Below are positions 30,562-45,022 of a DNA stretch of 64,000 nt, in pieces. The translations under genes were made by a program, and so were the position numbers. The first letter of the stretch is position 1. The number at the start of each line of letters is the position of its first letter. The stretch comes from a virus. Below the pieces are notes generated by a model, which worked only from the letters and a program-made list of their open reading frames with translations, did no database searches and had not been told where the DNA came from. The stretch spans positions 1 to 64,000 of the IMG/VR virus record IMGVR_UViG_3300032245_001466, one strand, 5' to 3'.

Positions 30562-30703
30562 ATCGACCAATAGGTCGGCAACAGAATCCACTCGCGGGTC
30601 GCAGTCGATGCGGCTCGCGGGTGGTTCGTTCGCCACCACACACAGGCCAGAGTTCTATCTCGAAGCTATGTAATATAAGTAAGTGGGTAACTAAGTTCGA
30701 CGC

Positions 30704-30806
30704 GGCGCTCCGCGCCTAACATGCCCACCTAAACAACACTCTGGCGTGTGGCACTCTCTGGTCAGCGGCGGACGCGCCGCGTAATCGTATAGTAGTAGGA
30801 GGTAGT
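30704..30806 (+). promoter_or_regulatory. Plus-array unit 4 promoter module
   Basis: GGCGC-TCC-GCGCC palindrome (30704-30716), ACCTAAACAACAC, GGCACTCT at 30750, a GC-rich leader hairpin (GCGGCG/CGCCGC) and AGGAGG. Confidence 0.7.
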
Positions 30807-31103
30807 ATGGTAGACGCAACCGTCAAGCACTACAACCCTATCGAGTGGGTTGTCTGGTTCGTAGAGGATAGGTCGCTATCTGATACGGAGAATAGCATCG
30901 AGTTCACGGAGCTTCAGGATCGTGTGAATGATCGGATCACCGCCGCAATCACGGCGCTCCGTCATTCCAATCCAAACGGCTGGCTCGATAGCCTGGATCA
31001 GGGTGGCATGCGCATCATTAACGATGCGCTCGCGCCGATCCAATGCCGCACGAATCGTCAGGACGATTCTGGCGCGTGGATCATTGAACGAGTAGACGCG
31101 TAA
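30807..31103 (+). CDS. Hypothetical protein (plus-array unit 4)
   Basis: 98 aa: YNPIEWVVWFVEDRSLSDT, then a helical middle (FTELQDRVNDRITAAITALR) and WLDSLDQGGMRIINDALAPI. No family recognised. AGGAGG before ATG. Confidence 0.6.
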   Translation: MVDATVKHYNPIEWVVWFVEDRSLSDTENSIEFTELQDRVNDRITAAITALRHSNPNGWLDSLDQGGMRIINDALAPIQCRTNRQDDSGAWIIERVDA

Positions 31104-31225
31104 AACATCCCCCACTCATCGCGGACGCGCGGTGGGTGGGGGGTTAGTTCGTCGCACCCCGTTCTGTGGCCAAGTTCTAACTCGAGATCCCATAATATAA
31201 CTAACAGCCTAACTAAGTTCGAGTC

Positions 31226-31339
31226 AGCGCTCCGCGCTTAACGAGCACACCTAAATGAATCTGCTGCTCGTGGCATTCTCTTCTTGCGAGCGATGGCACC
31301 CGTATAGCAGCGGTGCTCGCAGAAAGGTAGGTGTTCACG
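31226..31339 (+). promoter_or_regulatory. Plus-array unit 5 promoter module
   Basis: AGCGC-TCC-GCGCT palindrome (31226-31238), ACCTAAATGAATC, GGCATTCT at 31272, then a longer leader hairpin (TGCGAGC/GCTCGCA with inner GCACC/GGTGC) and AAAGGTAGG. Confidence 0.7.
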
Positions 31340-31582
31340 ATGTCTAAGAATGACAATCTTGCCGTCGCGATCAAGCGCCGAGACAATGCTCTCGCGTTGC
31401 TTGTAAGCGCGAAGGCGGATGTTGTTGCTGCGACGCGTCGTATCGCCGAGAGCGGTGGTTCCTATTTGGGGAATCGCCCTTCGTCGCATCCGAGCGTTCA
31501 GACAGCACAACGCGTCCTCTGGAACGTTGAAGAGCAGTACGCCAAAGCGGCGGCTGATCTGGCAACGATCCAGAAGGCGTAG
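31340..31582 (+). CDS. Coiled-coil-like small protein (plus-array unit 5)
   Basis: 80 aa, mostly helical with heptad-like spacing (LAVAIKRRDNALALLVSAKA and VLWNVEEQYAKAAADLATIQ). ATG 31340 follows AGGTAGG; a GTG nine bases upstream is possible. Function unknown. Confidence 0.6.
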   Translation: MSKNDNLAVAIKRRDNALALLVSAKADVVAATRRIAESGGSYLGNRPSSHPSVQTAQRVLWNVEEQYAKAAADLATIQKA

Positions 31583-31745
31583 CGTCCGTCTGGATTCTCC
31601 GAACCGCTCGTCGCTGCTAGGCGAGCGGTTCCCCTTCTCCCCTCACCGAGCAAGCGCGGTGGGGGGAGAGGTCTATCGGGCCTCTCTCACTACGTTCGAT
31701 CCCGACAGTCCATAATATAACTAACTAAGTAACTAAGTTCGAGTC

Positions 31746-31853
31746 AGCGCTCCGCGCTTAACGAGCCAACCTAAATGAATCTGCCGTCCGTGGGAATATT
31801 CATTTGCGACGGGAGAGACGTCGCCCATGTGGTTAAAGCAAATAGGAGGCTCT
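31746..31853 (+). promoter_or_regulatory. Plus-array unit 6 promoter module
   Basis: AGCGC-TCC-GCGCT palindrome (31746-31758), ACCTAAATGAATC, GGGAATATT at 31792 in the place of GGCATT, leader hairpin GCGACG/CGTCGC and AGGAGG. Confidence 0.65.
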
Positions 31854-32126
31854 ATGACGGATACCGAAAAGAAGGCAGCTCCGGTCACGTTGCTGCCATT
31901 TGTTGTCGTGGTCGCACGACTCGTTGAATTCTACATCCCTGTAGCAGCGGCTACAGCGGCTGATGCGAGTGATATCGCTCAGCAGATGGTCATGGATGGC
32001 CATGCTGATGATTTCTCCAACGAATGCGACATCCAGGAGGATGACGTTGACGTTCGGGGGGCGACGTTTGACGATCGCAACCTGTACAAATTCTTTGACG
32101 CGGACGGCGAAGAGCACCGCTTCTAG
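31854..32126 (+). CDS. Hypothetical acidic protein (plus-array unit 6)
   Basis: 90 aa. Starts MTDTEKKAAPVTLLPFVVVV, then a helix and a strongly acidic C-terminus (DDVDVRGATFDDRNLYKFFD). The hydrophobic strand is probably buried rather than membrane-spanning. AGGAGG before ATG 31854. An acidic DNA-mimic role is conceivable but not shown. Confidence 0.6.
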   Translation: MTDTEKKAAPVTLLPFVVVVARLVEFYIPVAAATAADASDIAQQMVMDGHADDFSNECDIQEDDVDVRGATFDDRNLYKFFDADGEEHRF

Positions 32127-32273
32127 ATCCTGACCGCCATCTCTCGGCGGTCAACATCCCCCTCACCGCAGCGATGCGGTGAGGGGGATGGTAGATCCCT
32201 AGTCTCTCTCACTACGTTCGAGCTCGAGAATCCGCAATATAACTAACTAACTAACTAACCCAGAGTTCGACTC

Positions 32274-32392
32274 GCCGCTCCGCGGCTAACATGCGTACCT
32301 AAATGAATCGGGCGGTCGGGGCATTATGTCGGCACGGGGACGCCCGACGCGTTGTGAATCGCAACGCGAAACAGAATCAAATAGGAGGCAGT
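32274..32392 (+). promoter_or_regulatory. Plus-array unit 7 promoter module
   Basis: GCCGC-TCC-GCGGC palindrome (32274-32286; arms differ from other units yet pair), ACCTAAATGAATC, GGCATTAT at 32320, leader hairpin GCGTTG/CAACGC and AGGAGG. Confidence 0.7.
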
Positions 32393-32653
32393 ATGGACGC
32401 ACTGGAAATCTTGTACAAGGTATTCGCACTATCGTATGTTGCCGAGCGCGAGGCGTATCGCAATGTTCAGCGTTGGGAGACGCTCGCAGCGGCGCAGGGG
32501 AAACCCGAACCGCAGTACGCAACCGATAGCGTGTACGCTTCGCTCATTGATGAGTGGGACGAAGCGCACAAGGAACTGAAGAAGTTTGAGCGCGAACTTC
32601 TCAAGGAGTACCGCAAGCAGCGAGCAGCGGGCACCTTCACAGTGATGGCGTAG
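32393..32653 (+). CDS. Helical coiled-coil protein (plus-array unit 7)
   Basis: 86 aa, almost all helix (EILYKVFALSYVAEREAYRN, EAHKELKKFERELLKEYRKQ), probably a coiled-coil dimer. The start at ATG 32393 is set by AGGAGG; longer upstream frames have none. Function unknown. Confidence 0.65.
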   Translation: MDALEILYKVFALSYVAEREAYRNVQRWETLAAAQGKPEPQYATDSVYASLIDEWDEAHKELKKFERELLKEYRKQRAAGTFTVMA

Positions 32654-32793
32654 ACACCGCCACGACACCACACCCCATCAACCGCGGACGCGCGGTTGGT
32701 GGGGTGGTCGGTCGGTACTCTCTCTCACGTTGTTCGAGCTCGGCAGCCCATAAGATAACTAACTAACTAACTAACCAATAACTGGTTCGAATC

Positions 32794-32888
32794 GGCGCTC
32801 CGCGCCTAACGAGCCCACATAAACGAATCCGTCGCCTATGACATTATTCAGGTGCGGCAGTTGCCGTGTAGTATGAAAGGGGAAAGAA
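32794..32888 (+). promoter_or_regulatory. Plus-array unit 8 promoter module
   Basis: GGCGC-TCC-GCGCC palindrome (32794-32806), ACATAAACGAATC, GACATTAT at 32840, leader GCGGCAGTTGCCGTGTAG and AAAGGGG. The leader segment GGCAGTTGCCGTGTAG is identical to one in minus-array unit 11. Confidence 0.7.
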
Positions 32889-33215
32889 ATGTCACACGAG
32901 TTAGAGTTCAGTCACGATCCAAAGAGCGTCGCAGATCCCTGCTCTCTGGATAGTATCGTTGAGGCGTACATTGAATTCCGCAACGCACCTGTGCGTGGCA
33001 CGAATCTCGTTTATCGGCAAATGCCCGTAGACGAGATGCTCGCGATGACGCGCCGACCAGAGGATTTCATTGAGAGGCTAGGATCGTGGGCTGCGATCTG
33101 GGGTTCAGATTCTCAGCGATACGACATCGGCAAGTTCGGGTGGTGGTCCTGCTCCGAGTGCGGCGCCGATGACATTGAGTTAGGTTCATACGACGACGAG
33201 TGCGACGAAGAGTAG
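32889..33215 (+). CDS. Hypothetical protein with single CxxC (plus-array unit 8)
   Basis: 108 aa. YIEFRNAPVRGTNLVYRQMP in the middle and a C-terminal GWWSCSECGADDIELGSYDD. The last motif resembles GYWECEECGEESKRIS at the end of unit 11, so the two proteins may be distant relatives. Function unknown. Confidence 0.65.
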   Translation: MSHELEFSHDPKSVADPCSLDSIVEAYIEFRNAPVRGTNLVYRQMPVDEMLAMTRRPEDFIERLGSWAAIWGSDSQRYDIGKFGWWSCSECGADDIELGSYDDECDEE

Positions 33216-33223
33216 TCGCCAAT

Positions 33224-33264
33224 CGCTCCACTCTCCCACCGCTCACCGCTTCGGCGGTGGGCGG
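33224..33264 (+). terminator. Terminator of plus-array unit 8
   Basis: CCCACCGC/GCGGTGGG-type stem closed by a UUCG-like loop region (CTCACCGCTTCGGCGGTG). Equivalent UUCG or near-UUCG hairpins follow the stops of units 7, 9, 10 and 11 (about 32160, 33770, 34300 and 34865); units 2 to 6 have related GC-rich hairpins there. Confidence 0.6.
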
Positions 33265-33343
33265 TGGTAGTTCCATCCCGAGTCTCTCACTTCGTTCGAT
33301 CTCGAAACTCCATAAGATAACTAACTAACTGGGCGTTCGATCC

Positions 33344-33436
33344 GACGCTCCGCGTCTATCAGGAGAACCTAAACAATAATGGCGTCTATGTCATTGTCTC
33401 TCTGCGGCACCTGCCGTATAGTTTGTAGGAGGTAGT
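33344..33436 (+). promoter_or_regulatory. Plus-array unit 9 promoter module
   Basis: GACGC-TCC-GCGTC palindrome (33344-33356), ACCTAAACAATAA, GTCATTGT at 33390, leader GCGGCACCTGCCG and AGGAGG. Confidence 0.7.
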
Positions 33437-33760
33437 ATGTCGGACACAGAAACGATGAGCCTTCAGGAGATGGCTCGCGAACTGACGGTAATGCGCATTG
33501 AGCGTTCCCGCTGCTGCGATCCATACGATTGTATGCATCACGAGATGTGCGGCGAAGAGTGGTACGGGAAATGCAGCGGCTGCGAGCGTCGTGCGTACCT
33601 TTCCAATGAATTCTACGCTGCGTGCGAAGCAGAGAATGCAGATCCTGCCGCGCTGCTCAATGCAGAAGAGCGCGCTATTGAGGATGAGCGCTTTGACTTC
33701 TACTCGCGAATGAACGAGTGGGGCAATGACGACGCTGCCTTCTGGACCGATCAAGAGTAG
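33437..33760 (+). CDS. Cysteine-rich acidic protein (plus-array unit 9)
   Basis: 107 aa. Six cysteines in CCDPYDCMHHEMCGEEW and CSGCERRAYL make a zinc site; helical and acidic afterwards (AEERAIEDERFDFYSRMNEW). AGGAGG precedes ATG. Function unknown. Confidence 0.65.
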   Translation: MSDTETMSLQEMARELTVMRIERSRCCDPYDCMHHEMCGEEWYGKCSGCERRAYLSNEFYAACEAENADPAALLNAEERAIEDERFDFYSRMNEWGNDDAAFWTDQE

Positions 33761-33873
33761 TCGCATCACCCCGTTCACCGCTTTGGCGGTGGGCGGGGTG
33801 GTCTACCGAGGCTCTCTCACTACGTTCGATACCGAACCCCCGTAAGATAACTAACTAACCCTGAGTTCGACTC

Positions 33874-33969
33874 GGCGCTCCGCGCCTAACGAGAGCACCT
33901 AAATGAATCACCCCCTCGTGGCATTCTCTTGGTGCGGCACTTGCCGCGTAGTATGAAAGGGGAGCGCAA
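33874..33969 (+). promoter_or_regulatory. Plus-array unit 10 promoter module
   Basis: GGCGC-TCC-GCGCC palindrome (33874-33886), ACCTAAATGAATC, GGCATTCT at 33920, leader GCGGCACTTGCCGC and AAAGGGGAG. This unit is closest to the array consensus. Confidence 0.75.
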
Positions 33970-34275
33970 ATGTTTGATTGCGTAAAGCACGGCGAGGTAG
34001 CGAAGAGTCTCAGTGGCTATTGCGTTGCTTGCTGCTCAGAGGATCATATCTGCGAAACCTGCGGATTGCGCAGCGGCAGTGATGATGGCTTCACTCTCGT
34101 TGAGTGGCGCAGCACGCAAATTTGGAAGGGTCAGATGCTTTGCGATGATTGCGTTGCGTGCGCAGATTGCGAAGTTTCTGGTGACGGTACCGTGAACACC
34201 CACAACGATTACAGCGAACTGCTTTGCGATGCTTGCGTTGAGGATCGCGACGCAGAGTGGGAGAGCGAAGAGTAG
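33970..34275 (+). CDS. Multi-zinc-ribbon protein (plus-array unit 10)
   Basis: 101 aa with at least six Cys pairs: CVACCSEDHICETCG, CDDCVACADCEVSG and CDACVEDRD. Probably two zinc knuckles, LIM-like in spacing, and an acidic tail. It may be a protein- or nucleic-acid-binding adaptor; family unknown. Confidence 0.7.
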   Translation: MFDCVKHGEVAKSLSGYCVACCSEDHICETCGLRSGSDDGFTLVEWRSTQIWKGQMLCDDCVACADCEVSGDGTVNTHNDYSELLCDACVEDRDAEWESEE

Positions 34276-34413
34276 TCACAACCGATCCACTCCACCATCG
34301 TCAACCGCTCGGCGGTTGGCGGTGGTGGTTCAATCGGGAGTCTCTCACTTCGTTCGATCCCGACAGTCCGTAATATAACTAACTAATTAACTAACTAATA
34401 ACTGGTTCGACTC

Positions 34414-34508
34414 GGCCCTCCGGGCCTATCGGCCTAACATAAATGAATCAATCGTTTGCCGTACTCTCTGGGTGCGGCGGTTGCCGTGTAGTAATAAGGA
34501 GGCTAGTA
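34414..34508 (+). promoter_or_regulatory. Plus-array unit 11 promoter module
   Basis: GGCCC-TCC-GGGCC palindrome (34414-34426), ACATAAATGAATC, CGTACTCT at 34460, leader GCGGCGGTTGCCGTGTAG and AAGGAGG. Confidence 0.65.
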
Positions 34509-34853
34509 ATGGGAGCAATGAAGAATCAAGCAATAGAGGAGCGCAACGATAGCGTCGTTGATTATCACACATGGCGATTCGTAGAAGCCGATGGCGGTGC
34601 TGATCAGCACGCGCTAGAGTGGTGGGCGTCATCATACGCTCGCCGTGCCGATACCGCCGACGAAGCGGTAGACGTCATGGAGAAGCCGCATCACTACGCT
34701 GAGGAGATTGCAGAGTTCGCCAGCATTTATGCTGACGCGAGCGATGACGACCTCTCGCTATTCGGCTATTGGGAGTGTGAAGAGTGCGGCGAAGAGTCCA
34801 AGAGGATCTCGCACTCGATAGACATGGCGAAGACCTGCTACGGTCAGCAGTAG
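34509..34853 (+). CDS. Hypothetical protein with CxxC (plus-array unit 11)
   Basis: 114 aa, helical and acidic (QHALEWWASSYARRADTADE, ASIYADASDDDLSLFG), ending GYWECEECGEESKRIS. It shares the aromatic-x-C-x-E-C-G ending with unit 8. AAGGAGG selects ATG 34509 over upstream in-frame starts. Confidence 0.65.
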   Translation: MGAMKNQAIEERNDSVVDYHTWRFVEADGGADQHALEWWASSYARRADTADEAVDVMEKPHHYAEEIAEFASIYADASDDDLSLFGYWECEECGEESKRISHSIDMAKTCYGQQ

Positions 34854-34982
34854 CGCACCGCCCCACTCACCGCTTCGGCGGTGGGTGGGGCGGTCTATCG
34901 GGCCTCTCTCACTTCGTTCGAGCTCGCCAACCTGACTAATAACTAACTGCATAACTAACTAAGATAACTAACCTAACGTTCT

Positions 34983-35773: not shown

Positions 35774-35878
35774 TGTCTAGCCTCCTTCTATGCCTTGCCC
35801 AAGTGGGCTAGTCGCATTATAGAGTGAGATTCTGCGCCCTGTCAAGCGTTCTATCTCAGGTAGCCGGGGCTACCTGAG
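35774..35878 (-). promoter_or_regulatory. Minus-array promoter 1 with upstream palindrome
   Basis: TTGACA (35840-35845), 18 nt, TATAAT (35816-35821). Upstream a perfect 10-bp palindrome CTCAGGTAGC with its complement and a 4-nt loop (35855-35878). Leader hairpin GCCCACTTGGGC and GGAGG follow. A UUCG-capped terminator of the preceding unit lies at about 35892-35912. Confidence 0.85.
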
Positions 35879-35954
35879 CCATAACAATAAACCCCGCCGA
35901 AGCGGGGCTTATCGTTTCACGACGGGGGGCTAGTTCCCCGTAGCGAGCATCTAG

Positions 35955-36176
35955 TTATCGCGCAAGCGCGACGGCCTCTTGTACGCGGCTTGCCGCGCCC
36001 TCGGCGCTACCGAACTCCTCAATGCCGAACACCTCAACGAGATTGTTTACAAAGTCGGTCGCCATCTTCTCAAAGTAGAAGGTCGTATCGCCCTCCGCGT
36101 CCTGCCCCTCATACCAACGGGCAAAGGTTGTGCTTGCTCCGTTTGTGTGAATCTGATACCAAGTGTTTGCGTTCAT
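35955..36176 (-). CDS. Hypothetical protein (minus-array unit 2, second gene)
   Basis: 73 aa, begins MNANTWYQIHTNGASTTFAR; aromatic beta N-terminus then a helix (SAEGAASRVQEAVALAR). It starts 5 nt after the preceding stop, so it is cotranscribed with the zinc protein at 36182. Function unknown. Confidence 0.6.
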   Translation of the reverse strand: MNANTWYQIHTNGASTTFARWYEGQDAEGDTTFYFEKMATDFVNNLVEVFGIEEFGSAEGAASRVQEAVALAR

Positions 36177-36181
36177 TAGTC

Positions 36182-36331
36182 CTACTCCTCACATACGCAG
36201 GTTTCGCACCCGCAGTTGATTTTGTTGTGGCACTTCTCGCAAAGCACCTTGCCGCTCTGGTTGAGTGTTTCGCTCATACCATCGCCGCAGTTCTCGCAGG
36301 GCGAGTAGTCCAAGTCCTCAAAGGTCGCCAT
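36182..36331 (-). CDS. Small zinc-binding protein (minus-array unit 2, first gene)
   Basis: 49 aa with eight cysteines: CENCGDGMS, CEKCHNKINCGCETCVC. Two zinc sites are likely. GGAGGCTAGAA before ATG, the same ribosome-site sequence used by its neighbours. Function unknown. Confidence 0.65.
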   Translation of the reverse strand: MATFEDLDYSPCENCGDGMSETLNQSGKVLCEKCHNKINCGCETCVCEE

Positions 36332-36436
36332 TTCTAGCCTCCTATTCCTAGCCAGCCCAAGTGGGCTACGGGCATTATAGAGTCATCTTCTGCCTGCCGT
36401 CAAGTGGTTCTAGTCCAATCTGCCGAGGCAGATTGG
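36332..36436 (-). promoter_or_regulatory. Minus-array promoter 2 with upstream palindrome
   Basis: TTGACG (36398-36403), 18 nt, TATAAT (36374-36379). Palindrome CCAATCTGC with its complement (36415-36436, loop CTCG on the minus strand). Leader hairpin GCCCACTTGGGC. Just upstream, AACGAGGGG/CCCCTCGTT with TTTTTG terminates the previous unit. Confidence 0.85.
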
Positions 36437-36492
36437 AGGCAAACAAAAACGAGGGGCGCACCCCTCGTTTCTGTTTTCTGAGCTGCGAAACC

Positions 36493-36900
36493 TTACGCGA
36501 TAGGGTAGCCGCCCAGTTCTAGCAGCGTGCGGATTTCTTCCACCTGCTCATCATTGAGGGCGAGCGTCTGCCCGTCCTTATCCTCTGCGGTGAGTACGCA
36601 GTTGCCATAGATGCCGTCAAAGTTTCCGCCGAGGATTTCATTTCGCAGCGAAGTTGCCGCCTGATTGCGGACGACTGGCTCATTGAAAAGCCCTTCCTCA
36701 TCGCACCAGAGCACCACACTCGTTGCGCCGTACTTGCCAGAAACCGCAACCTCGGTAATGTCAAACTCGCCCACGCGGTAAATCTCTTTGAGCGTGCTGC
36801 CGTCATCGTTGAAGTCCACCACCTCAACCCAGTTGAAGAGTGCGCCGTTTGGCGTTGCGTCCTCAAACTTGCCGACTCCGAACTTGAACGCCTTACCCAT
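36493..36900 (-). CDS. Hypothetical protein (minus-array unit 3)
   Basis: 135 aa, beta-rich (FNWVEVVDFNDDGSTLKEIY, YGATSVVLWCDEEGLFNEP) with a C-terminal IYGNCVLTAEDKDGQTLALN and helix. The last part resembles small phage DUF3846-type proteins, but I cannot assign it firmly. GGAGGCTAG before ATG. Confidence 0.6.
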   Translation of the reverse strand: MGKAFKFGVGKFEDATPNGALFNWVEVVDFNDDGSTLKEIYRVGEFDITEVAVSGKYGATSVVLWCDEEGLFNEPVVRNQAATSLRNEILGGNFDGIYGNCVLTAEDKDGQTLALNDEQVEEIRTLLELGGYPIA

Positions 36901-37010
36901 TTTCTAGCCTCCTACTTTTTCCATCGGGAAGCCCCGACCTCTGAATCTTACGCGATAAATCCGCAGCCTGTCAAGCGGGTTCTACCCCTAATGGCCGGAG
37001 CCATTAGGGG
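36901..37010 (-). promoter_or_regulatory. Minus-array promoter 3 with upstream palindrome
   Basis: TTGACA (36969-36974), 18 nt, TAAGAT (36945-36950). An 11-bp palindrome CCCCTAATGGC with its complement and UCCG loop (36985-37010). Leader hairpin TCGGGGCTTCCCGA. No separate terminator lies between it and the preceding gene, so the palindrome itself may end transcription. Confidence 0.85.
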
Positions 37011-37030
37011 CTGAACTATTATCTGGCGAT

Positions 37031-37372
37031 TTAGGCGAAGACGCTTGTGATGTCCTGCATTTCGCGCTCAGCGGCTTCGGCGGAATCAAAGACAACGAAG
37101 TCAATGAATCCATCGTTGCGCCAGTGAACGATTGCATACTGGAACCTATCGTAAGTCCCATCAAGTTCGGTTTCATACGATTCATCTGGGATAGCAACGC
37201 CATCCATCGTATCTCCATAGATGAGTTCAATCTTGATAGCGTGCGGCTCAACGCGGCTCCGAACTTCTGGTCGGAGATACCAAACTGGGCACTTGCTGCA
37301 CACTTCGCCCTGTGAGCAGTGGAACTGGTAGAAGTCGCTCTTCGTGAGTGAGATTGCAAACGCCTTGAACAT
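37031..37372 (-). CDS. Hypothetical protein (minus-array unit 4)
   Basis: 113 aa. MFKAFAISLTKSDFYQFHC and CSKCPVWYLRPEVRSRVEPH, then alternating strands and helix (YAIVHWRNDGFIDFVVFDS, AEAAEREMQDITSVFA). Possibly one zinc pair. GGAGGCTAGG before ATG. Confidence 0.6.
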   Translation of the reverse strand: MFKAFAISLTKSDFYQFHCSQGEVCSKCPVWYLRPEVRSRVEPHAIKIELIYGDTMDGVAIPDESYETELDGTYDRFQYAIVHWRNDGFIDFVVFDSAEAAEREMQDITSVFA

Positions 37373-37476
37373 CCTAGCCTCCTGTTCTCAATCAGCCCAA
37401 GTGGGCTACGCCCATTGTAATGTGAACTTTCCCAGCCTGTCAAGCGTTCTATCCCAAGTGGCCTCGGCCACTTGGG
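37373..37476 (-). promoter_or_regulatory. Minus-array promoter 4 with upstream palindrome
   Basis: TTGACA (37438-37443), 18 nt, TACAAT (37414-37419). Palindrome CCCAAGTGGC with its complement, loop CGAG (37453-37476). Leader hairpin GCCCACTTGGGC. Upstream terminator AAGCGGGCTAGTTG with its complement at about 37492-37527. Confidence 0.85.
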
Positions 37477-37573
37477 GCATAACAATAATAAAGCGGGCTA
37501 GTTGGCTGCGATCAACTAGCCCGCTTGGGGAAGAGGTGGTGGAGGCTGCCGCCACCTCGTAGACATTAGTCCG

Positions 37574-37837
37574 CTATGCGAACTCAAACTGGCGACAATC
37601 TGCGCCGAACAAACAACTGGCTGGCTCGTGTGGTTGTGGCTCTATTGCCCAGTTTAGGCAAGTGCCGCAAGAATCGCCACAAAGGTTGATGTCATCCCAG
37701 TCAAAGACAGGTCCGAGGGTGTTGCCCTCGCGGTCAGTTGTCTGTGGGTCGTCAAGCGCGTCGCCGAAGCGAACCTCAGCGCACGCCACGCAATGGAATG
37801 AACCCTCGTAAGTCCAAGCCAAGATTCTGCTATCCAT
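37574..37837 (-). CDS. Cysteine-containing protein (minus-array unit 5)
   Basis: 87 aa. Cysteines in CVACAEVRFGD, LCGDSCGTCLNW and CLFGADCRQF suggest two metal sites. AGGAGG before ATG 37837; an upstream in-frame start lacks a ribosome site. Function unknown. Confidence 0.6.
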   Translation of the reverse strand: MDSRILAWTYEGSFHCVACAEVRFGDALDDPQTTDREGNTLGPVFDWDDINLCGDSCGTCLNWAIEPQPHEPASCLFGADCRQFEFA

Positions 37838-37940
37838 AAGTCCTCCTACTCGCAACTATCGGTAGTTCCCGACCACACGATTATACGCGATAAGTTCTGA
37901 GCCTGTCAAGTTCCACCGCAAGGAGCCGAGGCTCCTTGCG
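37838..37940 (-). promoter_or_regulatory. Minus-array promoter 5 with upstream palindrome
   Basis: TTGACA (37904-37909), 18 nt, TATAAT (37880-37885). Palindrome CGCAAGGAGC with its complement, loop CTCG (37917-37940). Leader hairpin TCGGGAACTACCGA. Confidence 0.85.
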
Positions 37941-37954
37941 CCTACCCAATAATG

Positions 37955-38035
37955 CTATCTACTGCTGATGAGGGCGAGTGTGTACAGCATTAGGAGCAGG
38001 AGCAGCCCGTAGAAGATGGCGTACTCCACAATCAT
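37955..38035 (-). CDS. 26-residue membrane peptide (minus-array unit 6, second gene)
   Basis: MIVEYAIFYGLLLLLMLYTL plus six residues: one transmembrane helix. The ATG overlaps the upstream stop (ATGA), so translation is coupled. A 26-codon membrane ORF with the same coupling is found at 47137. Confidence 0.5.
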   Translation of the reverse strand: MIVEYAIFYGLLLLLMLYTLALISSR

Positions 38036-38289
38036 ACAACCACGCTTTGGAGCGCGTCGTAGCAGTCATCGCATAGCGACTGCTTATGCTCGTAGGCGTT
38101 CTCGTAGCCGTTCCAGCCGTAGGCAAACGAACGCGTCTTGCCCTCAAACGGGCAACGCTTGTCCAGACCAAGAGCCTCCTCGCCCTCGCACTCCTGAACC
38201 ATTGGGTGATCGTGCGTTTCGCACTCGCATTGGTCGTAGTAGCAATCGCCGTTGCCACACATCGTCATTGACGCTTGTAGGTATGCCAT
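38032..38289 (-). CDS. Cysteine-rich protein (minus-array unit 6, first gene)
   Basis: 85 aa. MCGNGDCYYDQCECETHDH at the N-terminus and SLCDDCYDALQSV at the C-terminus form probable zinc sites. AAGGAGGCAACA before ATG 38289. Function unknown. Confidence 0.65.
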   Translation of the reverse strand: MAYLQASMTMCGNGDCYYDQCECETHDHPMVQECEGEEALGLDKRCPFEGKTRSFAYGWNGYENAYEHKQSLCDDCYDALQSVVV

Positions 38290-38395
38290 TGTTGCCTCCT
38301 TCACTAGCCTCCCCAAGTGGGGTACTCGTATTCTATACACACTCCTAGCCAGCCGTCAAGCGGGGTTCTAGTCATCTTTGCCGGAGCAAAGATGA
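38290..38395 (-). promoter_or_regulatory. Minus-array promoter 6 with upstream palindrome
   Basis: TTGACG (38354-38359), 18 nt, TAGAAT (38330-38335). Palindrome TCATCTTTGC with its complement, UCCG loop (38372-38395). Confidence 0.8.
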
Positions 38396-38408
38396 GCAGA
38401 ACAAATAG

Positions 38409-38628
38409 AAAGACCCCCCAGAGCCGTCGCCCTGAGAGGTCTTTCCTCGGATTCGTTGTCTGGGGCTAATCACTTCCCCAGACTCCTTTTCCTTCCGCTC
38501 CGCCGATACATTGGCTCCTAGCGGTCATCGTCCTTTGCGTCTCTATCCCCGCATTTCTTGGCTGCGGCATCTGCTCGCTCGTCCAGAGTCTCACCCAGTC
38601 GGTTGCTATTCCTAGGATCGCTTCCGAC
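38409..38628 (-). ncRNA. Candidate structured non-coding RNA 1
   Basis: A canonical array promoter reads into about 220 nt with no ribosome site and no convincing ORF, ending in an intrinsic terminator (AAAGACC/GGTCTTT stem, 38409-38444, then TCTATTTGTT). Within it lie GTCGG/CCGAC at the 5' end (38598-38628), CCGCA/TGCGG (38549-38567), CCGCT/AGCGG with inner GCC/GGC (38495-38524), and an 8-bp GTCTGGGG/CCCCAGAC hairpin (38458-38483). The last can be replaced by AGACTC/GAGTCT (38480-38485 with 38586-38591), a possible switch. A 54-codon ORF starting 4 nt after the -10 is possible but improbable. Confidence 0.55.
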
Positions 38629-38749
38629 ATAGGGAGTATCTCACCTCGTCTGGGGTCTTGTCAAGCACTTTCCCAAAGATTCTTTATGAATCTTTTTTAT
38701 CCACCAGCCGCCCCCTTGACAGTTCTATCCCGAAGTGCAGCTGCACTTC
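38629..38749 (-). promoter_or_regulatory. Minus-array promoter 7 (drives ncRNA 1) with distant palindrome
   Basis: TTGACA (38659-38664), 18 nt, GATACT (38635-38640). The palindrome CCCGAAGTGC with its complement (38726-38749) sits about 60 nt further upstream than in other units. Between them lies a plus-oriented terminator-like hairpin (AAGATTC/GAATCTT then TTTTT, about 38673-38700). Confidence 0.7.
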
Positions 38750-38792
38750 GGGCTGCCACAATAATAAACTCAAAGAACAAGGAGCCAAATAA

Positions 38793-38927
38793 CTAACTCT
38801 CTTGCGGGTGCTCGCAGTTTTCTGACTGCTCCAACTCGTAGCACGCGTTATCCCGAACGGGATTGTCTACACACTCGCAGACAATCTCATTGCGTTCGCA
38901 GTCATCGCACCAAACCATCGTACTCAT
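38793..38927 (-). CDS. Small Cys-rich acidic protein (minus-array unit 8, third gene)
   Basis: 44 aa. CDDCERNEIVCECVDN, then CYELEQSENCEH: seven cysteines in total, probably a zinc site. TAATG overlap with the preceding gene. Function unknown. Confidence 0.55.
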   Translation of the reverse strand: MSTMVWCDDCERNEIVCECVDNPVRDNACYELEQSENCEHPQES

Positions 38928-39145
38928 TAGAGCCTCCCAGTTCCGCCGCAGCCGCAGATGCCGCCCTCGCAGGTTGCGCCTTCCTCAACGAGCAGCGCGC
39001 AGCCGTACTTCTCGGCTCGGTGTTCCTCGCACGATTCGCAGTAAAGAGCAGATTTGCCAGACTCATTGTTGTCGGAGATGTACGCTGCCTGACCGTCGCA
39101 GAAGTCGCAGAAGCGCGACTCCAAGATGAACTCGCCCTCGCTCAT
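38927..39145 (-). CDS. Zinc-ribbon protein (minus-array unit 8, second gene)
   Basis: 72 aa. CDFCDGQAAYISDN and CESCEEHRAEKYG form one ribbon; the end CEGGICGCGGTG is a second cysteine cluster. The start overlaps the upstream stop (ATGA). Function unknown. Confidence 0.65.
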   Translation of the reverse strand: MSEGEFILESRFCDFCDGQAAYISDNNESGKSALYCESCEEHRAEKYGCALLVEEGATCEGGICGCGGTGRL

Positions 39146-39351
39146 AGTGCCACCTCAAATCCGTCAGCCTGAATACCATCTAGAATCTGCTGAACATAGC
39201 GGCGCTCAATCGCAAGACCGCGACCAAGATACATCGCGTCCTCGCCGATGTTCTCGTCCAGCCAGCGGCGAGCATCGCTCGTCGTCGGAGTGAGTAGGCA
39301 GACGGAGCCGCCGTCCGTGAGCGTGAAGTCCGCGCTGTGCTTCTTTGCCAT
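39142..39351 (-). CDS. Hypothetical protein (minus-array unit 8, first gene)
   Basis: 69 aa: DFTLTDGGSVCLLTPTTSDA then ARRWLDENIGEDAMYLGRGL and YVQQILDGIQADGFEV. A small alpha/beta fold; many phage proteins of this size and pattern are known without function. AGGAGG precedes ATG. Confidence 0.65.
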   Translation of the reverse strand: MAKKHSADFTLTDGGSVCLLTPTTSDARRWLDENIGEDAMYLGRGLAIERRYVQQILDGIQADGFEVAL

Positions 39352-39452
39352 TGTGTCCTCCTATCGCAACGCGCCCAAGTGAGCGTGAGGAAAGTGTAAA
39401 TGATCATTGACCAGCCGTCAAGTTCTAACTCAAACAGCCGCGGCTGTTTGAG
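39352..39452 (-). promoter_or_regulatory. Minus-array promoter 8 with upstream palindrome
   Basis: TTGACG (39416-39421), 17 nt, TACACT (39393-39398). Palindrome CTCAAACAGC with its complement, loop CGCG (39429-39452). Confidence 0.8.
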
Positions 39453-39465
39453 CCGAAACAATAAA

Positions 39466-39668
39466 GGGGAGCCGCGCCAGACACCACATCTGGCACGACT
39501 CCCCGCGTATCGCCGCTATGACGCTTATCCCCTTGCGGAGGCAACCTTCGGCTCTCGCCTAGTTGCTGCTGACTCTACCTTCTCTGGTTAGGAGCCCAAG
39601 AGCCAGACCTTATCGTCGCGGGCAGTTCGTCAATCTGCCAACTAGCCGTCCTCTACACGGCGCGGATT
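39466..39668 (-). ncRNA. Candidate structured RNA 2 (3' region of unit 9)
   Basis: After the stop of the unit-9 gene about 165 nt of non-coding sequence lead to a terminator (GGGGAG plus GCCAGA stems, 39466-39504, then TTTATTG). Paired segments include GCCGT/ACGGC (39645-39661), a closing stem CTAGTTG/CAACTAG (39559-39565 with 39639-39645) around TCTGG/CCAGA (39583-39607) and GGCAG/CTGCC (39621-39639), a GCAA-capped CUCC/GGGG hairpin and a GAGA-capped GGC/GCC. Two GNRA tetraloops and a multibranch closing stem suggest a folded RNA. No own promoter is visible. Confidence 0.5.
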
Positions 39669-39671
39669 TAT

Positions 39672-39956
39672 TTACGCTTTCACCTCGTACTGCTCGCCGC
39701 CGATTCGCAGCGCGGTGATTGCGTCAAGGGCGATTGAGCGATAGCCCTCTGCGGTAATGTCATAGACGAAGATGAGGTCTTTGGCAGCAGCGTCATACGC
39801 AGCCTCGCCGCCTTTGAGATGCTTCTTTACGCCAAGACGCGCCGTCATCTTGCGAAGTTCGCCCGTGGTTCGCTTGATGAAGTCCACGCCGAAGATTGCG
39901 CCATTGCTGTTGCGAATCATCTCTGCCGCTTCGCTTCGCTTGATTGCCTTTGCCAT
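39672..39956 (-). CDS. Conserved phage/plasmid small protein, SH3-like (minus-array unit 9)
   Basis: 94 aa. Pattern MIRNSNGAIFGVDFIKRTTG, RLGVKKHLKGGEAAYD, DLIFVYDITAEGYRSIALD and GGEQYEV. This small beta-rich family (KKHLKGG and GYRSI motifs) is widespread in phages and plasmids, without known function. GGAGGAAGAA selects ATG 39956. Confidence 0.7.
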   Translation of the reverse strand: MAKAIKRSEAAEMIRNSNGAIFGVDFIKRTTGELRKMTARLGVKKHLKGGEAAYDAAAKDLIFVYDITAEGYRSIALDAITALRIGGEQYEVKA

Positions 39957-40062
39957 TTCTTCCTCCTTGTTCACAGCACCCCAATCGGGGCAAGCCCATT
40001 ATAGGGTCATCTTTTGCCAGCCGTCAAGTGGGTTCTAGCCCAAGAGGCCGGAGCCTCTTGGG
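39957..40062 (-). promoter_or_regulatory. Minus-array promoter 9 with upstream palindrome
   Basis: TTGACG (40022-40027), 18 nt, TATAAT (39998-40003). Palindrome CCCAAGAGGC with its complement, UCCG loop (40039-40062). Confidence 0.85.
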
Positions 40063-40078
40063 GCTGAACTATAATCGC

Positions 40079-40255
40079 CTACTTCCAGTCTTCTGGAACT
40101 AACTGCCAATCCTTTTCGCAATCACTAGAATAAAGGTCGCAATGCCGACACCAGACGACAAAGCAGCCCTCCTCGTGTCCGTCTTTCTCGCAATCAGACC
40201 AGAGCCAATGCGCCTCGCGAAGATTGTCTGGGCAGTCGCAGCGAAGAACGCTCAT
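40079..40255 (-). CDS. Small Cys/His-rich protein (minus-array unit 10, second gene)
   Basis: 58 aa. CDCPDN, CEKDGHEEGC and WCRHCDLYSSDCEKDW give two possible zinc sites. ATGA overlap with the upstream gene. Function unknown. Confidence 0.6.
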   Translation of the reverse strand: MSVLRCDCPDNLREAHWLWSDCEKDGHEEGCFVVWCRHCDLYSSDCEKDWQLVPEDWK

Positions 40256-40701
40256 AGGACTTCGCAACCTTTCAGGGTGCGGCAAAGACCCAGAAACTCT
40301 CGCCACTCCTCAATAATCGCAACCCAAGCCGTAGCCTCTTCATCTGGGTCAGCCTTCGTCTTATCGTCCGTGTACGGGCTGGCAAGAAGAATACCAGTAA
40401 TAATCTTCTTGATTTCTTCTTCGCTCAACTTGGAGATGGCATTGTGTAGTTCTTCGCACTCATAGTCCTTGATGATGTTGCCGCTGTTATCGTACAGATT
40501 CTCATTGACCTCGGTGAATCCAATCTCATCGTGGAAAGCGCGCAGGTAGCCCATACCCCAAATGTTCAGTCGGAAATAGACCGCGCTTGGAGCCTTCTCA
40601 GCGTAAGAGCCGTCTGGCTCAATCCACATTGAGCGGAACTTCTTGGCGTGCGCCGCAGCCAGTTCACGATTCTCTCGCAATGAGTAGATGTCGTATCCCA
40701 T
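40252..40701 (-). CDS. Hypothetical protein (minus-array unit 10, first gene)
   Basis: 149 aa. MGYDIYSLRENRELAAAHAK, YFRLNIWGMGYLRAFHDEIG and SKLSEEEIKKIITGILLASP. The start MGYDIY... and an aromatic N-terminal half recur in small phage proteins, but the family is not certain. GGAGGACAAA precedes ATG 40701; an upstream in-frame extension lies in the promoter region. Confidence 0.65.
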   Translation of the reverse strand: MGYDIYSLRENRELAAAHAKKFRSMWIEPDGSYAEKAPSAVYFRLNIWGMGYLRAFHDEIGFTEVNENLYDNSGNIIKDYECEELHNAISKLSEEEIKKIITGILLASPYTDDKTKADPDEEATAWVAIIEEWREFLGLCRTLKGCEVL

Positions 40702-40803
40702 TTTGTCCTCCTTATTCCACACCCCAATCAGGGCAAGGTCATTGTAAGGTACCGCTCTCCGCTCGTCAATAGGTTCTAGCCAAGATGGCCGGAGCCATCT
40801 TGG
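40702..40803 (-). promoter_or_regulatory. Minus-array promoter 10 with upstream palindrome
   Basis: TTGACG (40764-40769), 17 nt, TACAAT (40741-40746). Palindrome CCAAGATGGC with its complement, UCCG loop (40780-40803). Upstream terminator AACCGCC-TTCG-GGCGGTT with TTTTTTG at about 40812-40830. Confidence 0.85.
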
Positions 40804-40854
40804 GTACAACAAAAAACCGCCCGAAGGCGGTTAGTTGTTTGGAAATAATCCTGA

Positions 40855-41331
40855 CTAAACGATAACTTCCTGCGGCTCCATAAGCCCAGCCCAGATGTTT
40901 GGCACATTAGAGCGGATGCTCGTGTATCCGTCAGAGGAAATAACGAGATGGTCAAGAAACTCAATGTCCAACAGGCGCGCCCCTGCCACCAAGTCCTCAG
41001 TTAGTTTCTTGTCCTCGTCGGACGGAGTGTGGTCGCCGCTTGGGTGATTGTGAACAACCACAATGCCCTGACCGCCAGTCAGGATACAAGAGCGAAACAC
41101 TTCGTTGATGCGAACGCTTGTGCCTGTTGCCGTGCCAAGATAGACCTGCTCAATCCCGATGAGATTATTCCTTGCCCCAAGCACCATCACAAACAGCGAC
41201 TCCTGATTAGAGTCCTTTGCGAAATCGCGGAACATCTTTACTGCCTCGGCTGGCTGCTCAACCCTCTCATCGGACTGATCAGCAACCTTCTTTCTCTTTA
41301 CCACCATTTCGTATGCTTTCCAGTTCTTCAC
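40855..41331 (-). CDS. RadC-like JAB-domain protein (minus-array unit 11, second gene)
   Basis: 158 aa. VVVHNHPSGDHTPSDED is the JAB/JAMM metal motif (HxH...D) of RadC-like proteins, followed by LLDIEFLDHLVISSDGYTSI. Residues 1-35 are a basic extension. RadC-like genes are common in mobile elements and defence islands; their biochemical role is unsettled. The start overlaps the upstream stop by ATGA. Confidence 0.85.
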   Translation of the reverse strand: MKNWKAYEMVVKRKKVADQSDERVEQPAEAVKMFRDFAKDSNQESLFVMVLGARNNLIGIEQVYLGTATGTSVRINEVFRSCILTGGQGIVVVHNHPSGDHTPSDEDKKLTEDLVAGARLLDIEFLDHLVISSDGYTSIRSNVPNIWAGLMEPQEVIV

Positions 41332-41876
41332 GCTACCACCACCTTTGCTGCTTCCTCTTTGGTTGTCTTGCCGCTGCGAATCTCATCTCGCAACTCAATC
41401 CCTTCCTTCATCCAGATTGCGTCAAGTTCGGCGTTGCGCTTCTCAGCGTGCTTTGCCTCGCGCAAACCTTCCTCAGTCATACGCTCAACAACGCGCTTGC
41501 GCCAAGCCGTCGGCGACTCATAAGAGGCGTTTGTTGAGAGTCCGATGTGCCGAACGATGTCGGCACGCGTCAGAGGGCGAGCCTCAAAGCAATCTGCGTT
41601 CTTATCGCCGTCTGGCTCGTTTCCGTTCCATACGGTCATCTTTGAGAGCCAACCGATTTCGTATGCGAGCGCGAGTCGCTGCTCCCACTCATCCACATTG
41701 GCTTCGGTGATTTCGTTTAGTCCAATCGTCATCGTCGCCCAGATGAAGGAGTTCGTGATTGGGCTGAGGTACTCCTCGCCGCGCACGCGTCCATCCATCA
41801 CGCTGCTCTTTGTTGCGGTGAGCCAACAGACATCATCCGCGTCCTTGATGTTTCCCACGAACCAACTTAGTGGCAT
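41328..41876 (-). CDS. Hypothetical protein (minus-array unit 11, first gene)
   Basis: 182 aa. MPLSWFVGNIKDADDVCWLT, then FIWATMTIGLNEITEANVDE and a highly charged helical end (MTEEGLREAKHAEKRNAELD). Not recognised. It is encoded with the RadC-like gene. Confidence 0.6.
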   Translation of the reverse strand: MPLSWFVGNIKDADDVCWLTATKSSVMDGRVRGEEYLSPITNSFIWATMTIGLNEITEANVDEWEQRLALAYEIGWLSKMTVWNGNEPDGDKNADCFEARPLTRADIVRHIGLSTNASYESPTAWRKRVVERMTEEGLREAKHAEKRNAELDAIWMKEGIELRDEIRSGKTTKEEAAKVVVA

Positions 41877-41984
41877 ACTGCCTCCTTATGTCCTCTTATC
41901 GGGAAGCCCCGACCTGCTTATTCTAAGACCACGCTTGACCCGCTGTCAAATGGGTTCTAGTCCAATGAGCCGGAGCTCATTGGA
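41877..41984 (-). promoter_or_regulatory. Minus-array promoter 11 with upstream palindrome
   Basis: TTGACA (41944-41949), 18 nt, TAGAAT (41920-41925). Palindrome TCCAATGAGC with its complement, UCCG loop (41961-41984). Leader hairpin TCGGGGCTTCCCGA. No other terminator precedes it. Confidence 0.85.
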
Positions 41985-42004
41985 GGCGAACTATTATCTG
42001 CTTA

Positions 42005-42475
42005 TTACTTGATTTGGTTTGTCGTATAACCGCACGCCATACAAACTGGGACGGAGCAGCCTTCGGGATTGTCGCCCGTATCTACGCCCTCATCTGGGTC
42101 GCACAATCCACACGGCGCATAATCGACATCACGGCAGAGGCACTCGCTTTTCGCATCTCGCGGCAAGTCGTTGTAGTGCCTGTGCCAGTTTGCGTCGCCG
42201 TCGCGATTCAGCGCAAACTCGCAATCAGGGCGGAAGCACCAACCATCAGCAACGGCTTCCTTGTCCGACATAAATGGCGGGTGAAACTCACACTCGCACG
42301 GAGCGCAGTCCAAGCAGTAGACGAGATAGCCATCTGGCACGCTTCCATCATACTGATCAAAGTCAAGCGTATCGAATCGCGTGTACGGCATACCATTCCA
42401 AGTGCCGATGACCTTCTCGTCGGCGTAGAAGACCATCGTGGAGCAGCGAACGCATTTGTCCATCTGCCCACTCAT
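42005..42475 (-). CDS. Cysteine-rich protein (minus-array unit 12, second gene)
   Basis: 156 aa with about 14 cysteines in pairs (CVRCSTMVFY, CLDCAPCECEFH, CRDVDYAPCGLCD, VCMACGYTT). Probably several zinc ribbons. ATGA overlap with the upstream gene. Function unknown. Confidence 0.65.
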   Translation of the reverse strand: MSGQMDKCVRCSTMVFYADEKVIGTWNGMPYTRFDTLDFDQYDGSVPDGYLVYCLDCAPCECEFHPPFMSDKEAVADGWCFRPDCEFALNRDGDANWHRHYNDLPRDAKSECLCRDVDYAPCGLCDPDEGVDTGDNPEGCSVPVCMACGYTTNQIK

Positions 42476-42780
42476 TCTGCTTCCTCCCACTCCGCGCCCT
42501 GCTCAATCAGGGAAACGAATCCTTCATTTGGATCATCGTGGTTGGTGTGAACTGCCTGTACGAATCGCAACGAACAAGAGTTCTCGTACCACTCCATCAC
42601 CGCGCTCAGCATCTCATCTGGCGTGGTGTCTTCCGCGGAGATCAGCGGATCATAGCCGTACCCGCGCATCTCCGACATCTGCTCATCGTCCATCAAGACA
42701 TAGATCTTGTGGCAGGTATCAAACGCGATGCCCTTCGCATTTTCTAGATACTCCTCAACCTTGTCGAAACTCGCTGCCAT
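42472..42780 (-). CDS. Hypothetical protein (minus-array unit 12, first gene)
   Basis: 102 aa: MAASFDKVEEYLENAKGIAF, KIYVLMDDEQMSEMRGYGYD, and an acidic tail. The pattern YLENAKGIAFDTCHKIYVLMD followed by G-Y-D-P resembles small phage proteins of unknown function. Confidence 0.65.
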   Translation of the reverse strand: MAASFDKVEEYLENAKGIAFDTCHKIYVLMDDEQMSEMRGYGYDPLISAEDTTPDEMLSAVMEWYENSCSLRFVQAVHTNHDDPNEGFVSLIEQGAEWEEAE

Positions 42781-42885
42781 TTCGTCCTCCTAGTTTCTAC
42801 ACGGCAACTGCCGTAGGTGGATTGTAAGGCACAACCTAGCGGCTCGTCAAATGTTCTACTCCAAGTGGCCGGAGCCACTTGGAGT
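42781..42885 (-). promoter_or_regulatory. Minus-array promoter 12 with upstream palindrome
   Basis: TTGACG (42845-42850), 18 nt, TACAAT (42821-42826). A 12-bp palindrome ACTCCAAGTGGC with its complement, UCCG loop (42858-42885). The leader GGCAGTTGCCGTGTAG equals that of plus-array unit 8. Upstream terminator AAATCCCGCCC with its complement and TTTTTG. Confidence 0.85.
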
Positions 42886-42940
42886 AAAACAAAAATCCCG
42901 CCCCGAAGGGCGGGATTTCTGGTTGATCTTCTGGTGAAGA

Positions 42941-43903
42941 TTACGCGAGGGCGAGAATCGCCTCGCGCTTTGTCTTCGCTGCGAAGCCCGTATCCAACAT
43001 CACGCTTGACGCTCGCGCATCAAGAGCCGTTGAGCGAACGCCGCCACGATACGAAACGCCGTGATCGAGGTACTCCGCGATGGCGTTGTACACGCCCCAC
43101 TTCGTATCGCGAAGCCCGTCAAGATTCTCCGCGTTATTGAGAATCGCGAAAGTTGCCTTAGCGCGCTCCGACATTACTTCCTTATCGCGCTTCTCCGATT
43201 CAGAGAGCGGGAAGATCTTTGAGATGATGCGGAACGCCTCAGATCGCTCAATCTTCTGGGCAACCATCTGCGAGCCGATGCGCGAGAACTCATCAACAGC
43301 GGCAGAGGCAAGCCCAAGAGCGCGCTTCGCCTCCGCGACTTTCTCCTCAATCTTCGCCGTGTGGCGAAGTGTGAACGACATCTTCGCGCTTCCAAGAGCC
43401 GCGTTGAGCGTATTCTGGCATACCACGCGCACAGGAGTGATCATCGCTTTGAGCGGGAACAGCCCGTTGTGCCCATTGGCGATGACGAGGTAAGTCGTCG
43501 TGCCGCCGTTGTCGCCCTTGATCTCGATCTTCTCAGGAATCTCCAACGCCGCGAAGATCACCTGACCGCCTTTGAGTGAACCAGCCGTTTCGTAGCGCGC
43601 ACCCTCATCAAGCAGCGCGTCCGCGAACGACAGCATCTCATCGTTCTGGATTGGCGTGTAGCGGTCGCCGACAACGCCAAGAACCGCGCCGTCAGTTGAT
43701 CGAACATTTGCGCGCTTGCCCTCGATGGCGAGCGTCTTGTTGTCGAGCGTTGTGAAGATCGGCTGCTGCTTGACCTGCCAATCAAGACCCGCGGCAACGA
43801 TCATTTCCGCGCTCGTAGTAAGACCTGCGTTTGCTACGCCAAGTCCGTGCCACGGCATACCGCGCTCCGCGTTGTATGCCATCGTTTCTACCTCGTGTGC
43901 CAT
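42941..43903 (-). CDS. DUF932 / TIGR03299-type phage/plasmid protein (minus-array unit 13)
   Basis: 320 aa. MAYNAERGMPWHGLGVANAG, VGDRYTPIQNDEMLSFADAL, TYLVIANGHNGLFPLKAM and PVRVVCQNTLNAALG are characteristic of the DUF932 family (TIGR03299), frequent in phages and on conjugative plasmids near the leading region, where it is expressed early. Biochemical function unknown. GGAGGACACA before ATG 43903. Confidence 0.85.
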   Translation of the reverse strand: MAHEVETMAYNAERGMPWHGLGVANAGLTTSAEMIVAAGLDWQVKQQPIFTTLDNKTLAIEGKRANVRSTDGAVLGVVGDRYTPIQNDEMLSFADALLDEGARYETAGSLKGGQVIFAALEIPEKIEIKGDNGGTTTYLVIANGHNGLFPLKAMITPVRVVCQNTLNAALGSAKMSFTLRHTAKIEEKVAEAKRALGLASAAVDEFSRIGSQMVAQKIERSEAFRIISKIFPLSESEKRDKEVMSERAKATFAILNNAENLDGLRDTKWGVYNAIAEYLDHGVSYRGGVRSTALDARASSVMLDTGFAAKTKREAILALA

Positions 43904-44003
43904 TGTGTCCTCCTTCTTTACATACGGCAACTGCCGTAAGAAGATTCTCCCACAAGCACAAGATCGCGTCAAGTTCTAGCCCAAAGGGCCGGAGCCCTTT
44001 GGG
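43904..44003 (-). promoter_or_regulatory. Minus-array promoter 13 with upstream palindrome
   Basis: TTGACG (43967-43972), 17 nt, GAGAAT (43944-43949). Palindrome CCCAAAGGGC with its complement, UCCG loop (43980-44003). Leader GGCAGTTGCCGTATG. Upstream terminator at about 44014-44042 with TTATTATTAT. Confidence 0.8.
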
Positions 44004-44088
44004 TGGAACATAATAATAAGCCCCCCGAATAATCGAGGGGCTTATTACTTTGTGGGGCGCAGGGAGGACGCCTTGCGCCCCGAAGTCA

Positions 44089-44901
44089 TCAGCCTCCGAC
44101 GATGCCGCCGAAATGCTCCTCGCAGAACGACTCAAACTCCGTCTGCGGAACGGCATCATAATCTCGCTCGCCGTATTGCGGCTTGCCATCTTCGCCCTTG
44201 TACCACGCCTCATCTGGCAGCGAGTCGCCATCGCCAAACTCACGCCGCGAGATTTCGTTTCCCGCGTGATAGACAACTTCGCCAGCGTAGCCCATACCGC
44301 CTTCGCAATAACGATGAGTAATGGTCAGCGTTGGGAATAACCCAGAGAGCGCGTGAATCACAGGCTCGGCAGGGCTCCACGCGGTATCAAAGTTGTATGA
44401 AGTTATACCCGCGACAAATGAGTCGTCGCGGTCGTGCCAAGCCTCGGAGCAGTTCCACTTTGTTCCCCAATGCTCAACATTCCAGTTGTACCACCAGTCT
44501 GGGTGTGAGGAAATCTTTGGGGTGTTGTGCTTTGGGCAGACCTCTGAGCCGCCGAACATCTGAGCAACAGAGTCAGTAATCGTGCCGTTATCAAGGTTCG
44601 TCTTCTTTACCTCAACGCCGTCCACAGCCCAATAGCCTTCTTGAGGCTCAAAGCCGTAGTCCTTCTCGTACTCGTGTCCTTCGGCTCCCTTGACCACCGC
44701 CTTGGTGATAACGAACTCTGGGTGGCAGCCACAAAGGAAATCGTTCTGATTCTCGTTGGCTGAATAGTACGGAACATCAGGAGTCGGAACAATCTTCGCG
44801 AAATCGAAGCCGTCCTCTTCGCCCTTGACCAACTCAATGAGTCGGACAATCTCCTGCTCGTTTCCGCTGATGTCTACTTGGTTTACGCACCAGTTTGGCA
44901 T
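44089..44901 (-). CDS. Api92-like DUF1281 protein, ferredoxin-like fold (minus-array unit 14)
   Basis: 270 aa. MPNWCVNQVDISGNEQEIVR at the start and WYNWNVEHWGTKWN in the middle are the signature of Api92/YubB-like DUF1281 proteins found in phages and on plasmids next to anti-restriction and DUF932 genes. The C-terminal half has AWSPAEPVIHALSGLFPTLT. Function unknown; plasmid co-occurrence suggests an early host-interaction role. Confidence 0.85.
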   Translation of the reverse strand: MPNWCVNQVDISGNEQEIVRLIELVKGEEDGFDFAKIVPTPDVPYYSANENQNDFLCGCHPEFVITKAVVKGAEGHEYEKDYGFEPQEGYWAVDGVEVKKTNLDNGTITDSVAQMFGGSEVCPKHNTPKISSHPDWWYNWNVEHWGTKWNCSEAWHDRDDSFVAGITSYNFDTAWSPAEPVIHALSGLFPTLTITHRYCEGGMGYAGEVVYHAGNEISRREFGDGDSLPDEAWYKGEDGKPQYGERDYDAVPQTEFESFCEEHFGGIVGG

Positions 44902-45004
44902 TGTGTCCTCCTTGTGTCCTCGCGGGAAGCCCCGCACCATTGGATTGTAAGCCACCGCTTCCGCTGCTGTCAAGTTCTACCTCAACAAGCCGGAGCTTGT
45001 TGAG
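44902..45004 (-). promoter_or_regulatory. Minus-array promoter 14 with upstream palindrome
   Basis: TTGACA (44968-44973), 18 nt, TACAAT (44944-44949). Palindrome CTCAACAAGC with its complement, UCCG loop (44981-45004). The leader GGTGCGGGGCTTCCCG equals that of plus-array unit 12. Confidence 0.85.
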
Positions 45005-45022
45005 CGCGAACTAATTATTTTT

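Follow-up and report, generated by a model that had tools for sequence, protein, structure and literature searches.

A conserved, structured non-coding RNA unit with a predicted promoter and terminator of its own in a group of related phages

The window, by which we mean the whole 64,000-nucleotide stretch of DNA analysed here (part of an 82,937-base viral record), contains a short unit, nc1, that raises the question of whether it encodes an RNA rather than a protein and, if so, how such an RNA might act. An earlier note had described, with the strand unstated, a TTGACA-18-GATACT promoter followed by about 220 nt and an intrinsic terminator. All these elements were found by our scan in the expected location, and all of them are on the minus strand. 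The predicted promoter (38635-38664, minus strand) consists of TTGACA at 38664-38659, an 18-nt spacer and a TG-extended GATACT at 38640-38635; the predicted 5' end of the RNA is near 38629, and the unit as a whole (about 220 nt) spans 38405-38629 on the minus strand. The intrinsic terminator was called at 38446-38407 (minus strand), with an 18-pair stem, about 220 nt past the promoter. Its hairpin (38409-38444, minus strand) shows strong variation of the stem among relatives, yet pairing is kept around an invariant GACG tetraloop (38428-38425). The array around nc1 comprises 15 sites on the minus strand whose first hexamer is TTGACA or TTGACG, and the region contains 26 promoter-like and 34 terminator-like sites, compared with 10.1 and 14.7, respectively, in shuffled sequences. 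nc1 is presumably transcribed from a promoter of this array type. Possession of a promoter and a terminator of its own, predicted from the sequence and conserved in the relatives, agrees with what defines a phage-encoded structured small RNA.

Several other features of the surroundings were recorded. In the minus-strand array (35848-45018) the units are separated by near-perfect palindromes with variable arms between GTTCTA and GAAC, for instance at 38365-38402, 39421-39459 and 43972-44010; the arms differ from site to site yet remain complementary, the centre is GC-rich (CCGGAG, CCGCGG), and the palindromes lie just upstream of the -35 hexamers (repeat families D6, D7 and D9). A plus-strand array (29644-34958) is built of units of about 460-560 nt with GTTCGA...TAACTAACTAACTAA tracts (families D2 and D4). 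Upstream of nc1, at 38676-38762, a palindrome adjoins a plus-strand TTGACA (38716), and on the plus strand an AT-rich hairpin with a run of T residues occurs there as well. The upstream region of the related record L010 is regular by comparison, and the segment in the window has the look of a local rearrangement. A second non-coding unit, nc2, lies near nc1 (39681-39466, minus strand) and is also present in L002, L003, L004, L005 and L008. It contains the invariant blocks GACGATAAG and CGCAAGNGGATAAGCGTC, and its stems seem to covary (GGCAG/CTGCC versus GGTAGTT/AACTACC).

A neighbouring protein (phrog_1221) led to four related IMG/VR records, in all of which nc1 was located by BLAST, and three further records were found with exact patterns derived from the conserved core, which gives eight records including that of the window. 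The cores of L005 and L009 are identical, so that these eight records hold seven distinct nc1 sequences. The covariance model R1, which spans 185 positions, scored 195-235 bits in every one of the eight, with one copy in each, whereas the rest of the fetched loci scored at noise. A 94-aa protein served as a marker of the array, and each of the eight records holding it carries exactly one nc1. The 31 further portal-bearing fragments recovered in a portal-based search contain no nc1, but they also lack both the 94-aa marker and the phrog_1221 gene and are therefore uninformative about its absence; among the eight marker records and these 31 fragments, none holds the array without nc1. Short gapped patterns were also run against viral and bacterial collections, where only the known relatives passed the model; the 54 matches in bacterial genomes and the remaining viral ones failed it and are attributed to chance. 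No relative was found among cultured phages (INPHARED) or in 396 sampled actinobacterial genomes, a sample chosen on a host guess from weak protein similarity and searched without a positive control.

Comparison of these records supports the claim that nc1 is non-coding. The 54-codon open reading frame that starts at 38630 is disrupted in every relative: in L002, which is 99% identical, a stop occurs at codon 8, and in all others the frame is shifted or stopped. None of the reading frames in nc1 stays open across the relatives, and those that had been listed are thereby refuted as genes. The statement that the unit lacks a ribosome site does not hold literally, because a GUG of the last hairpin has AAAAGGAG 9 nt ahead of it. 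As read from the alignment, however, the frame opened by this GUG stops within 4-5 codons in L003, L004, L005, L008 and L010, and in the window it meets no stop before the terminator and runs through it, so it is no conserved gene.

The nucleotide sequence itself is strictly conserved. The 184-nt core is 98.9% identical to that of the window in L002 and 82-89% identical in the others, whereas the four-fold degenerate sites of the terminase gene (compared in L003, L004, L005 and L008) show only 35-37% identity to the window. The promoter hexamer TTGACA is preserved at 6/6 positions in all eight records, but the diverged relatives share only 4-9 of the 18 spacer bases with the window. The conserved block opens with TGTCGG, about 6 nt past the -10 hexamer, and this position, together with the unconserved spacer, fits selection on a transcript that starts near 38629. 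The neighbours of nc1 change. On its 3' side lies a gene for a small cysteine-rich protein in the window and L003, an MFKA-type gene in L004 and L005, nc2 in L008, where it follows directly, and another gene in L010; on its 5' side the phrog_1221 gene is found in L003 and other genes elsewhere. In the window, the gene after nc1 has its own promoter. Judged from this pattern of conservation, nc1 is very probably functional.

The minus strand of nc1 folds at -88.7 kcal/mol, compared with -68.3 +/- 4.3 kcal/mol for shuffled sequences (z of -4.7, better than all 200), and the homologues reach z values of -5.3 to -5.75. We drew a structure of 37 pairs, in which 97.3% of the cells of the alignment are paired. 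Seven pairs show two-sided compensatory changes, as opposed to 1.8 +/- 1.1 in shuffled alignments, of which 0/500 scored as high; when the partners were slid by 1-3 columns, pairing dropped to 34-44% and the two-sided changes to 0-1. These values refer to an alignment that was fitted to the drawn structure and to related sequences, only seven of them distinct. RNAalifold, applied to the same alignment, predicted P1, P3, P4 and P5, but not P2. The 5' hairpin P1 (GUCGG/CCGAC, 38598-38628, minus strand) is paired in 97% of cells and largely invariant. It is followed by a middle domain (38541-38588, minus strand) formed by P2 (CUCU/AGAG) and P3 (AU-GCCGCA/UGCGG-AU), and by the invariant hairpin P4 (CCGCU/AGCGG with inner GCC/GGC, 38495-38524, minus strand). 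Hairpin P5 (38449-38492, minus strand) consists of an outer GGA/UCC helix, an internal loop and the inner helix GUCUGGGG/CCCCAGAC (38483-38458), closed by the invariant apical loop AAGUGAUUAG (38475-38466). The compensatory support comes from five pairs in P5 and two in P3; P1, P2, P4 and the outer part of P5 hardly vary, and covariation is therefore no test of these helices. The local stem GTCTGGGG/CCCCAGAC that had been drawn from the window was confirmed: GTCTGGGG...CCCCAGAC occurs there once, at a chance expectation of 0.00, and covaries across the relatives. The middle domain exists in a short form and in a long form, with insertions matched on both sides of the helices: P2 changes from CUC-U/A-GAG to CUCGU/ACGAG, and P3 from AU...AU to GUC[A/U]...[U/A]GAC. 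On the portal tree ((window,(L003,L008)),(L010,(L004,L005))), the form must have changed at least twice. In the long form, as modelled, the extended P2 and P3 would share two bases, so that only one of them would be complete at a time. At the level of sequence, the comparison shows nc1 to be a conserved, non-coding, structured unit.

A search with all 4227 models of Rfam 15, at the gathering threshold and at E<=10, returned nothing credible for nc1; the top sub-threshold match was His_leader, with 18.6 bits against a threshold of 49. Neither ARAGORN nor Rfam detected a tmRNA or tRNA in it, and no description of nc1 was found among open-access papers. The pRNA of phage phi29, a structural RNA that self-assembles by loop pairing, has a similar length, but the likeness is an analogy only, nc1 having neither an Rfam match nor evidence of a packaging role. 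Phage-encoded small RNAs have been reviewed as a class (PMC12197685), which nc1 resembles as a short, independent, untranslated transcript with its own (here predicted) promoter and terminator, while it shows no sequence relation to any described member in Rfam or INPHARED. With ROOL and GOLLD it shares that it is non-coding, structured and phage-encoded and has a palindromic loop with concerted change (PMC12286853). However, GOLLD is far larger than the approximately 220-nt nc1, with many members above 800 nt (PMC12286853); no covariance-model match to ROOL, GOLLD or OLE was obtained, and oligomerisation is a candidate feature of nc1. By these comparisons nc1 is a new RNA family within a known kind, the phage-encoded structured small RNAs.

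How might such an RNA act? Its predicted independent transcription, its single copy, its differing neighbours and an invariance that covers the greater part of its core point to a trans-acting RNA that is recognised as a folded object. In the mechanism that we propose, the phage unit, with a promoter and a terminator of its own, would give a small RNA that folds into a chain of hairpins (P1, the P2/P3 domain, P4, P5 and the terminator) and acts in trans; its most likely mode of action would be to bind a protein of the host or of the phage, as a scaffold, decoy or inhibitor. Recognition would proceed through the invariant loops and linkers GGUGAGACUC, CAAAGGACGAUGACC, AGGAAAAGGAG, AAGUGAUUAG and CGACGG. 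We regard a self-contained, trans-acting folded RNA, most likely protein-binding, as somewhat probable; the invariance could have causes other than protein binding, and a protein partner is our best remaining guess.

The foremost alternative is that nc1 is an antisense regulator, with an invariant stretch pairing with host or phage mRNAs and altering their translation or stability. Many studied bacterial small RNAs act by base-pairing with mRNAs, and nc1 does contain invariant stretches that are predicted to be single-stranded. However, exact-match searches of the phage genomes, which are partial and do not cover the host, found no complementary 10-mer at a shared place in related phages, except for one in the close pair L004/L005. 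In addition, the invariance covers most of the core, beyond what a seed region would need. Anti-Shine-Dalgarno mimicry was rejected, as the match to the 16S anti-Shine-Dalgarno end amounts to 7 nt, which is not above chance: about 35% of sequences generated by a Markov model do as well. We consider antisense action possible but not probable.

A further reading stems from the loop of P1, where a palindrome at 38610-38617 (minus strand) offers a possible kissing site through which two copies of nc1 might pair. The window, L002 and L008 have UCCUAGGA at this place, and L003, L004, L005 and L010 have UCUAGA, so every relative has one form or the other. As read from the alignment, the two forms are linked by a double change from C14/G19 to U14/A19, which must have occurred at least twice on the portal tree, or once if nc1 was exchanged between phages. 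For OLE and GOLLD, similar palindrome switching served as evidence of homo-oligomers, because the adjacent nucleotides involved are unable to pair within one chain (PMC12286853). In nc1, by contrast, one chain could sterically accommodate a C14-G19 pair that closes a CUAG loop, which makes the case for a dimer weaker than in PMC12286853, even if the U14-A19 form would then be a lone pair. The palindrome could also be just this simple pair, or a DNA site. Moreover, only one loop is involved, and the cofolding energies apply to an extended duplex rather than to a kissing complex. We add dimerisation through this loop to the proposed mechanism only tentatively, and we hold it unlikely that nc1 is an RNA-only homo-oligomer assembled by kissing P1 loops in the manner of a small ROOL-, GOLLD- or OLE-type RNA. 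More speculative still is the idea that nc1, perhaps with its neighbour nc2, founds a two-RNA system in this group of uncultured phages, in which a kissing-loop dimer redirects a host machine; if true, the machine bound by such a dimer could be the ribosome, RNA polymerase or a nuclease, for example.

The two exclusive folds proposed in the earlier note would make nc1 a cis-acting leader, riboswitch or attenuator with control over the gene that follows. In the alternative fold, AGACUC (RNA positions 39-44) would pair with GAGUCU (145-150); this pairing is possible in the window, and a terminator closes the unit. The relatives do not bear it out. AGACUC is the same in all of them; where positions 148-150 change, compensation comes from the opposite strand of P5 and never from AGACUC. 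No two-sided change is seen in the alternative helix, which loses one pair in 5/7 sequences and a second in L008, where it breaks. Every covarying change keeps the local hairpin intact and none does so for the alternative, which supports a single fold but not the switch. The next gene, too, varies among the genomes and in the window is under its own promoter, so that neither two conserved exclusive folds nor a fixed downstream gene was found in the relatives, and control in cis appears very improbable. Guide or template RNAs of nucleases and reverse transcriptases (TnpB/omega RNA, retron, DGR) can be carried by phages and mobile elements, but in the eight records, some of them fragments, no TnpB zinc domain scored above the cut-off and no reverse transcriptase was detected, and with no Rfam match either, such a role is hardly credible. 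Equally implausible is an mRNA for a small, possibly leaderless protein such as that of the 54-codon frame: an ATG does stand just downstream of the -10 hexamer in the window, but the frame is broken even at 99% identity, and the differences in length, by 1 and 2 nt, are matched across helices.

The proposed trans-acting, probably protein-binding RNA would thus be encoded by a unit under stricter nucleotide conservation than the terminase gene. This strict conservation, together with the presence of nc1 in all records bearing the array marker, suggests that the RNA matters to these phages. Non-coding RNAs of phages are easily overlooked, as annotation seeks proteins; for nc1, a covariance model and defined mutations are now available for seeking its target.
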